A stretch of DNA of 64,000 nt from Granulosicoccaceae bacterium (lineage in GTDB: Bacteria > Pseudomonadota > Gammaproteobacteria > Granulosicoccales > Granulosicoccaceae), in assembly GCA_020629835.1 (NCBI GenBank), contig JAHDCO010000002.1, positions 1 to 64,000 on the forward strand, given 5' to 3'. The translations under genes and the position numbers were made by a program. The notes beneath the pieces were generated by a model, which was given only the letters and a program-made list of their open reading frames with translations, ran no database searches and was not told the origin of the DNA. Shown piece by piece: positions 50,365-53,308 of the stretch (position 1 is its first letter; every line of letters starts with the position of its first letter).

Positions 50365-51462
50365 TTATCGTAGTGACAAACCTAAGGCGCGTACTGTCTT
50401 AGCGGTTAATACGCCATTTCCAGATAAGCCTTTAGACTTTTGGAACGCAGATACCGCATTCACAGTAGATGGGCCAAGCTGACCGTCTACGCTGCCTGGG
50501 TTGTAGCCAGCAGCTTTCAGAGCACCTTGAATCTCGCGCACTTTACCAGCTGTAGTGTTGGTATCACACAAGATTTCACGCCAAGCCATCTCACCATCTT
50601 TAACTAACTCGCGCGTTTGTACTGTTTGGTACTTAGCAGGAATTGTTACGCGACGCTCAGACGCTGGAGTAACCACTTCAGTGACTTCAACTGTGCTGTA
50701 CTTGGCGGGGAGAGTAACCTGCTTAGTGTAGGCTTCCTGATCCACAACACGACGTGTAACCGTTTTGTATTCAGCAGGAATGTTTACAGTACGAGTAGAC
50801 GCAGGTGTCTTAATCACTTGCTTAGAAATGGTTTTGTAAGTGGCTGGCACCTCAACCAAACACATGATTTCACCAGTAGATTCGTCCAAACGCTGGATAG
50901 GTCCAGTGCCTTTCTTCCAAATCGTGTGTGCAGCTTTATCCACAACACGCTCAGTAACCGTTTCATATACCGCAGGTACTGATTCGATGCGAGAGGTTGC
51001 AGGGCGAACCATAACGCGCTCGGTAACGGTTTTATAAGTTGCAGGAACAGTCACTAACTTAGTAGAAGCTTCTTCTACAACAATACGCTTTGTGCCTGTT
51101 TTGTATTTGGCAGGGATAACTTCAATTTTTTCACCTGCTTCACTCATCAGTTTCCGTTCTGATTTCATTGTGTACGTTGGCTCCTGCCATACACGTGTGA
51201 AACACTGGCCAGGCTCAGCCTTAGGCGGTAACAAGCTGCTTCCTGATGCGGCGCCGCCAGAAACGGTCATCGCTTTAGGTGCGTTCTGTAAAGCCATTTC
51301 GCGACGCTTCAATTCCGCTTCACGGGCTTCAAGTGCCGCAGTCTTGTTGGCTAATTCTTGATCGAGTGACATGTCAGACGCAACGGGCTTACCACCGCTG
51401 CACGCAGACATCGTCAGCGCTAACGCGACAGAAGCCGCAACACTGTAAAAACGAGGGGTCAT
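50365..51462 (-). CDS. Lipoprotein with seven [V/I/L]PAxYxT repeats and peptidoglycan-binding domain
   Basis: 365 residues. Signal peptide with lipobox LTMSAC near residue 20, a helical stretch (DQELANKTAALEAREAELKRREMAL), then seven repeats beginning [VIL]PAxYxT; five of the six intervals are exactly 23 residues and one is 43 because of a 20-residue insert. The C-terminus (VREIQGALKAAGYNPGSVDGQLGPSTVNAVSAFQKSKGL) is a PG_binding_1 domain. It therefore likely links the outer membrane to the cell wall. The start at 51462 fits the signal peptide; the frame is open to 51480. Confidence 0.85.
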   Translation of the reverse strand: MTPRFYSVAASVALALTMSACSGGKPVASDMSLDQELANKTAALEAREAELKRREMALQNAPKAMTVSGGAASGSSLLPPKAEPGQCFTRVWQEPTYTMKSERKLMSEAGEKIEVIPAKYKTGTKRIVVEEASTKLVTVPATYKTVTERVMVRPATSRIESVPAVYETVTERVVDKAAHTIWKKGTGPIQRLDESTGEIMCLVEVPATYKTISKQVIKTPASTRTVNIPAEYKTVTRRVVDQEAYTKQVTLPAKYSTVEVTEVVTPASERRVTIPAKYQTVQTRELVKDGEMAWREILCDTNTTAGKVREIQGALKAAGYNPGSVDGQLGPSTVNAVSAFQKSKGLSGNGVLTAKTVRALGLSLR

Positions 51463-51640
51463 GAGTGATTCCTTGATCAACCCGATTCGAACTCAATTTC
51501 GATTCGGCAGGTATGTATTAAAGTTCGCCATCACAAAAGACGACGGTGGATGAGCGATTTCAATACTTCCCCATCCCACAACCCGGTTATCGTTGATTAA
51601 CGAATTTCCTTAATCGAATATTGTAAAAACCCTGTAACAC

Positions 51641-53308
51641 TCAAGGAAGCCGTTGATATACCCGCACGTAGTCAATATCAAACGATGCAGGAAATTGCGT
51701 GTTTTCATCAGGTGCCCCAGGAAACGTACCGCCAACAGCAAGATTCAGGATGATGTACATCTGTTCTTTTGAGACGCGCTCACCGGTTACTTCGGCTGTA
51801 ACTTGATCATTAACAAACCACGTAATGCTTTCAGGCGTCCATTCCACTGAATACGTTTGAAACTGCTCAGAGAAATCCGGTATCACAGCCCGGAACTCAT
51901 CACTGTCTGTGGAATCCGTTACACCATCACCGTCAGTATCACGCTTGGTGTGGTAAGCATGGTTCGCCGTTGTCGTCTGATCTCCTATCGCCTCAATGAT
52001 GTCTATTTCAGGGTCTTCTGGTTCTGCATCGTGGTAATAGGCGTTTAACAACCAAAAGGCACTCCATAGGCCTTTACCTTTTGGCATTTTCGCGCGCATT
52101 TCTACTTTGCCGTACTTAAAGCGAAATGAATCGTAGCTGGTTAATACACCTGACACGAAGGGTTGTCGGTTCAGTGCAAAACTGGCATCGGCTGTATTTA
52201 AGGTACGCGTGGTTCTGTCAAGTTCTATGCCTTCCTCATCAAGCGCGATGACCAGAAACTTTCGATCAGTGCCGGGCTGCATATCATCAACAAATAACGA
52301 TCGACCGGCTTGAGTACCTAATACAACCCCGTTATCCAATACATCGTATTCCGTTGCGTCTGCAACCGCGTTCCAGCTGATTTCTGCTGTTTGAGGGGAA
52401 TAAATAGACGCAGCTATTACCAGTCTGTCCGAAACTTCGCTGGGTGTTTGTCCATCAGAAGTATTGATGATGATGCTGTCTTCAATGACCAGTTCATCAC
52501 ACAGATCATAGGCGGATACGGTGTATTCCATATCTACGTCTGGTCGTATCGCATCTAAGTACAGACTGTCGTAGTTCCGACCTACTAAACGTTGTGTACC
52601 AGACGCACTTTGAATATCGAAGTATGCCGCACGATTCGGTGGGCGCCAGACGATCTCAGCAGACGTTTGCGAGTAGATTTTTCGATCAAGTTCTAAAGAA
52701 AACGGAACCCTGACTGAAGGTTGACTGCGTGTCGAAGTATTAACAGTAATTTGTTCGGTTGATAGTGCATTCCCGTTAACATCGCGAGCGGTAATTTCAT
52801 AGGCGTAATCGATACCGTCACGCAAGGCAGGTTCGAACCACGCACCGCCCGTTACCGAACCTAACTGTGCACCATCACGATTGACATCATAAGAGACAGC
52901 GCCTTCGGGCTGGCGCCACAGCACCTCGGCTGAAGTAGAAGAATAAACCGATTGGGTTAAGTACAGCCTGCTTCGATCAAACGGCGCTTTGTTAGCCTGG
53001 ATAGACAGTACCCCGTCGTTAATAACAAAAGGGTTGTAGTTAAATTGGCCGTCGTTGACGTAATACTGCATTTCATTATTGATGATGACGCCTGGGCCCC
53101 ACAATAGCTCCGGAGTCCAGCGGACAAGATCTAGCTCATTGTCATTAAACTCTTCAGCGAATACCAATTGATAGGGTGCATCCGCGTCATAGGGTGCACA
53201 GGTATCAGCGCTCGCGGGAGAAACTCCAGCGCAGGCAAAACCAGCAATCGTTAGAACGGCCCACGCCTTTGTTTGCTGAAAACACATTGGGCGATTATTA
53301 GTTGGCAT
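51641..53308 (-). CDS. Secreted GH16 beta-glucanase split by three FN3-like modules
   Basis: 555 residues with a signal peptide ending near PASA. GH16 N-terminal strands are at about 45-108 (YQLVFAEEFNDNELD...). Then come three modules of about 90 residues (115-190, 204-284, 294-372), each starting Y-S-x-x-[ST]-A-E-[VI]-x-W, fibronectin-III-like. GH16 resumes at 383 (FVSGVLTSYDSFRFKYGKVEMRA) with the catalytic ExDxxE as EIDIIE (E434, D436, E439). Probable laminarinase or related beta-1,3-glucanase. Start 53308 follows AAGGA. It is monocistronic. The domain order is unusual. Confidence 0.88.
   Translation of the reverse strand: MPTNNRPMCFQQTKAWAVLTIAGFACAGVSPASADTCAPYDADAPYQLVFAEEFNDNELDLVRWTPELLWGPGVIINNEMQYYVNDGQFNYNPFVINDGVLSIQANKAPFDRSRLYLTQSVYSSTSAEVLWRQPEGAVSYDVNRDGAQLGSVTGGAWFEPALRDGIDYAYEITARDVNGNALSTEQITVNTSTRSQPSVRVPFSLELDRKIYSQTSAEIVWRPPNRAAYFDIQSASGTQRLVGRNYDSLYLDAIRPDVDMEYTVSAYDLCDELVIEDSIIINTSDGQTPSEVSDRLVIAASIYSPQTAEISWNAVADATEYDVLDNGVVLGTQAGRSLFVDDMQPGTDRKFLVIALDEEGIELDRTTRTLNTADASFALNRQPFVSGVLTSYDSFRFKYGKVEMRAKMPKGKGLWSAFWLLNAYYHDAEPEDPEIDIIEAIGDQTTTANHAYHTKRDTDGDGVTDSTDSDEFRAVIPDFSEQFQTYSVEWTPESITWFVNDQVTAEVTGERVSKEQMYIILNLAVGGTFPGAPDENTQFPASFDIDYVRVYQRLP

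Follow-up and report, generated by a model that had tools for sequence, protein, structure and literature searches.

A secreted GH16 protein of Granulosicoccaceae with three fibronectin III-type modules inside its predicted laminarinase-like catalytic domain

The window, the whole 64,000-nucleotide stretch of Granulosicoccaceae DNA analysed here, carries on its reverse strand (51641–53308) a gene for a secreted GH16 protein of 555 amino acids with an internal array of fibronectin III (FN3)-type modules; 18 full-length orthologs were found. The coordinates given below for parts of this gene all refer to the reverse strand. Residues 1 to 34 (53207–53308) are a probable Sec signal peptide, assigned by sequence inspection and from the pattern of identity among orthologs: in the alignment, identity is low upstream of the cleavage end, and ADTC at the end of the signal peptide is invariant. 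The mature window protein begins D-T-C.

A Pfam search placed the GH16 domain (PF00722) at residues 375 to 547 (E = 9.6e-25, 87.5 bits against a gathering score of 22). The catalytic ExDxxE motif of the family is present as EIDIIE (residues 434–439, 51992–52009) and is kept in all orthologs. Nine GH16 matches, the window gene included, were found in the same genome, and uninterrupted paralogs from this genome and its relatives were used for comparison. Residues 46 to 109 showed 35–54% identity to the first strands of these paralogs, in which the equivalent of 46–109 sits a short step upstream of the equivalent of 378–553.

The split was tested with a profile built from 17 uninterrupted GH16 domains of the paralogs. 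This profile matched the gene twice, with its positions 1–72 at 52967–53173 and its positions 72–240 at 51650–52180, leaving a gap of about 262 residues, so that the insert corresponds to approximately residues 115 to 376. The loop running from the P of 'TP' to the position preceding 'YLSG' or its variant is 10 residues long in 17/17 uninterrupted relatives and 273 residues long here. The original prediction had put the two GH16 parts at about 45–108 and 383–555, some 270 residues apart, and the two-piece match and the paralog alignment bear this out. The N-terminal half was assigned to residues 44–110 (52979–53179) from profile positions 1–72, paralog identity and structural alignment, and the C-terminal half to residues 375–553 (51650–52186) from the Pfam match and profile positions 72–240. 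Annotation by Pfam only overlooks the first part of such a split catalytic domain.

An AlphaFold2 model of the window protein was built from ten sequences (pLDDT 74.8, pTM 0.57), and a second AlphaFold model was of an ortholog with 59% identity (pLDDT 70.4, pTM 0.50). Confidence in both models is moderate, and pLDDT falls below 50 in parts of the first GH16 half. Residues 10–520 of the window model aligned with Thermotoga maritima laminarinase (3azz) with a Z score of 26.5 and an rmsd of 2.5 over 224 of 250 residues. The ortholog model gave the same picture at lower confidence against 2hyk (Z 24.8, 223 of 237 residues aligned). In the models, both halves jointly form one laminarinase-like jelly roll that is intact in three dimensions and broken in sequence; the N-terminal part thus belongs to the GH16 fold in two predicted structures, as had been proposed. 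The best structural and sequence matches are laminarinases, and W415-S-A occupies the site at which WPA is expected from the paper on GH16 subfamily 3. That the N-terminal 110 residues instead lie outside the GH16 fold, or that the gene is misassembled, can scarcely be credited: Pfam alone, which gives just 375–547, would allow it, but both models and the two-piece profile match contradict it and the same intact frame is present in 18 other genomes.

The insert consists of three modules: M1 (residues 112–198, 52715–52975), M2 (203–289, 52442–52702), which includes Cys270, and M3 (294–373, 52190–52429). Their assignment is supported by the model, the comparison of modules across orthologs, a module profile and Pfam. 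The motif Y-S-x-x-[ST]-A-E-[VI]-x-W, which had been reported once per module, occurs at residues 122, 212 and 303 and was absent from all 100,000 shuffled versions of the protein. In the AlphaFold2 model the modules are beta sandwiches, M1 with seven strands and M2 and M3 similar. Foldseek matched them to FN3 arrays, and the module profile matched the FN3 domain of chitinase A1, titin and others, in agreement with the FN3-like character first proposed. The Pfam model for fn3 (PF00041) matched 5 of 14 modules, weakly (best E = 7.7e-05), and gave no match in the whole window protein. It is almost certain, as regards the architecture alone, that a GH16 domain is here interrupted by three FN3-type modules.

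Identity is 29–33% between the modules and 49–61% between each module and its ortholog counterparts, which indicates that the modules diverged from one another before the orthologs did. The same class of FN3 module is also found in unrelated secreted proteins of the window genome; judging from sequence, the related modules of these proteins are a plausible source of the insert.

The 57 genomes covered yielded the 18 orthologs, all of one family and in three genera (Granulosicoccus and relatives); the named ortholog records are from Granulosicoccus and Granulosicoccaceae. The interrupted sequences fall into a single clade (support 100/100). The simplest history that the sequences offer would be one insertion, which placed three modules between the 'LSIxA' and 'LSGIITS' strands, followed by descent.

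A limited survey of 369 Gammaproteobacteria revealed no interrupted GH16 beyond the Granulosicoccus family. There was also no split GH16 among the matches listed for 398 Pseudomonadota, a search that scored up to seven candidates per genome and missed the window gene itself, nor among those listed for 148 genomes from the phylum to which Natronoflexus belongs. Plasmid and phage collections contained no full-length relative, the matches being to the C-terminal part only. Three survey proteins with incomplete or late-starting GH16 matches were inspected, and their sequences proved to be uninterrupted.

An MFS transporter, a DsbA-like protein and a peptidoglycan-binding protein are kept as neighbours around many orthologs. 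In the window, the product of the gene at 50365–51480 (reverse strand) has a series of 'PAxYKTV'-like repeats, ends in a peptidoglycan-binding domain (PF01471) and may carry a lipobox; the gene is syntenic with the GH16 gene in several orthologous loci. In three loci (L041, L042 and L046), the interval separating the DsbA-like gene from the GH16 gene contains approximately 1.7–1.9 kb of extra DNA that is absent from the window locus.

The orthologs were then compared position by position. Mean pairwise identity is 0.70 and 0.74 for the two GH16 halves, and 0.59, 0.49 and 0.55 for M1, M2 and M3 respectively. The junctions with the catalytic domain (K107, P109, F110 and L115–T118 on one side, R368, N371 and A373–Q382 on the other) are nearly invariant; both inter-module linkers, unlike these junctions, vary freely. 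Nearly invariant junctions combined with variable linkers would be expected of a frame whose feet are fixed and whose corners are flexible.

Exactly two cysteines, at positions 37 and 270, are present in each mature protein (19/19 sequences). Cys37 (53198–53200) is the third mature residue and Cys270 (52499–52501) lies in the turn preceding the last strand of M2. The occurrence of two invariant cysteines in a secreted protein suggests a Cys37–Cys270 disulfide, which would join the mature N-terminus to M2; alternatively, the cysteines may form an intermolecular bond.

The insertion could be a tolerated passenger, that is, a neutral insertion in a permissive loop, inherited without serving any specific purpose. 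Engineered GH16 loops do accept whole domains, as in the Clostridium thermocellum lichenase with interferon inserted in loop 53, which retained its activity (PMC9573741), and in GluXyn-1 (PDB 1axk). Against this, 18/18 orthologs keep exactly three modules and show almost no change in length; beyond the signal peptide they depart from the window protein by single-residue insertions only. In addition, each module has 23–33 positions at which 17 or more of the 19 sequences agree, and the cysteine of M2 is invariant. A passenger is therefore considered unlikely.

The array and its disulfide staple might instead serve mainly to rigidify a jelly roll that the insertion had opened. The conserved junctions and the two invariant cysteines would fit such a role in folding or stability, but uninterrupted paralogs exist that have no array, and a short loop would be a cheaper means to the same end. 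This explanation seems very unlikely.

The reading that is preferred is that of an active, secreted beta-glucanase of family GH16 in which an FN3 frame, docked rigidly, flanks the cleft and extends or gates glucan binding. As a whole statement it is tentative, and we put its probability slightly short of even. The split, the rejoined fold of the models, the FN3 type of the modules, the single-clade distribution and the conservation pattern are computed results, whereas activity, substrate, docking, cleft contact, disulfide and role are inferred. The enzyme would be an endo-beta-glucanase most similar to laminarinases and would probably act on beta-1,3-glucan. M1 would depart from, and M3 return to, one and the same loop, so that the array would make a closed frame. 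The catalytic domain would hold both feet of this frame rigidly, and the putative disulfide would probably anchor M2 to the mature N-terminus. Most likely the frame would border the substrate cleft, where it would extend or gate the glucan-binding surface. In Bacillus lichenases the corresponding loop (residues 51–67), we assume, partly covers the cleft. A docked closed frame is favoured over the extended arm suggested earlier, since both ends of the array lie in one loop, the junctions are conserved and two cysteines are invariant. Kelp is rich in laminarin, and Granulosicoccus commonly lives as an epiphyte on macroalgae (PMC11126160, PMC10233909).

A more specific proposal, that the three FN3 modules form a disulfide-stapled ring that projects from a loop next to the cleft and acts as a clamp or lid which holds a beta-glucan chain and makes the enzyme processive or selective for chain conformation, is decidedly unlikely. 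If it were true, the jelly roll would here have gained its substrate clamp by a new type of construction.

FN3 modules of bacterial glycosidases are often mere spacers, and this was counted against the cleft-frame reading. The array could present the enzyme to the cell surface, the matrix or a partner protein, with a function unrelated to the cleft. The occurrence of the same FN3 class in unrelated secreted proteins of the genome is consistent with this, as is the N-terminal position of FN3 modules in GH16 paralogs. A spacer, however, requires no place within the jelly roll and no conserved junctions at its two ends, and an array that ends where it starts cannot part the catalytic domain from an anchor; nor did Pfam find an anchor domain in the window protein. 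A spacer or partner-binding role is thus judged rather unlikely.

The interrupted enzyme can be set beside known systems. The GH16 laminarinases 3azz, 2vy0 (Pyrococcus furiosus) and 4crq (ZgLamC) share the jelly roll and EIDIxE with the window protein and are the best structural match to the joined halves, but have a short loop at its insertion point. No GH16 chain with such an insert at this point was seen in the PDB searches, and no natural internal module array in GH16 was found in the open-access literature. Two PDB entries considered as split GH16 proteins, 8va4 and 7wwc, have extra N-terminal residues, and their GH16 part aligns as one contiguous range. EglC (NF052454), the best NCBIfam match, was likewise rejected as a precedent because it aligns unbroken to the uninterrupted paralog L029.

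Accessory modules inside catalytic domains do have precedents in other families. Xyn10C-like GH10 xylanases, from xylan utilisation loci, have two CBM4 modules within the catalytic domain, with binding shown (PMC7848910); this array is likewise kept in many relatives, but the host fold is a TIM barrel and the modules bind carbohydrate. GH148 EngU, with one CBM4 inserted in its clan GH-A barrel (PMC5725463), is also a beta-glucanase split by an accessory module, and differs in having a barrel and a single carbohydrate-binding module. The lichenase–interferon fusion and GluXyn-1 also hold a whole domain within the GH16 jelly roll, be it in the same loop or in another, but they are man-made, contain a single domain and lack evolved junctions. 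The view that internal accessory modules are unusual is therefore fair as a general statement, with the qualification that insertions are known in GH10 and GH148; as far as was searched, those in GH16 are otherwise engineered only. Within the reach of the searches, the window protein would then be the first natural example described of a module array inserted in a GH16 jelly roll.

The GH16 paralogs of the same genomes (for example L001, L002 and L029) share the GH16 domain, and L001 and L002 also have FN3-type modules. In contrast to the window protein, their GH16 domains are uninterrupted and the preceding parts, modules included, are N-terminal to GH16. Uninterrupted paralogs in the same genomes provide a ready control for an array that has been kept through 18 orthologs, and it becomes testable how an enzyme is affected when accessory modules shift from a terminal position to the interior of its catalytic domain. 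A GH16 protein close to the Granulosicoccus paralogs (L047) is filed under a Candidatus Paceibacterota MAG and is possibly mis-binned. Some relatives, including those at G004:C179 and G023:C1:5111162-5112535, have ORFs that apparently contain two tandem GH16 domains.
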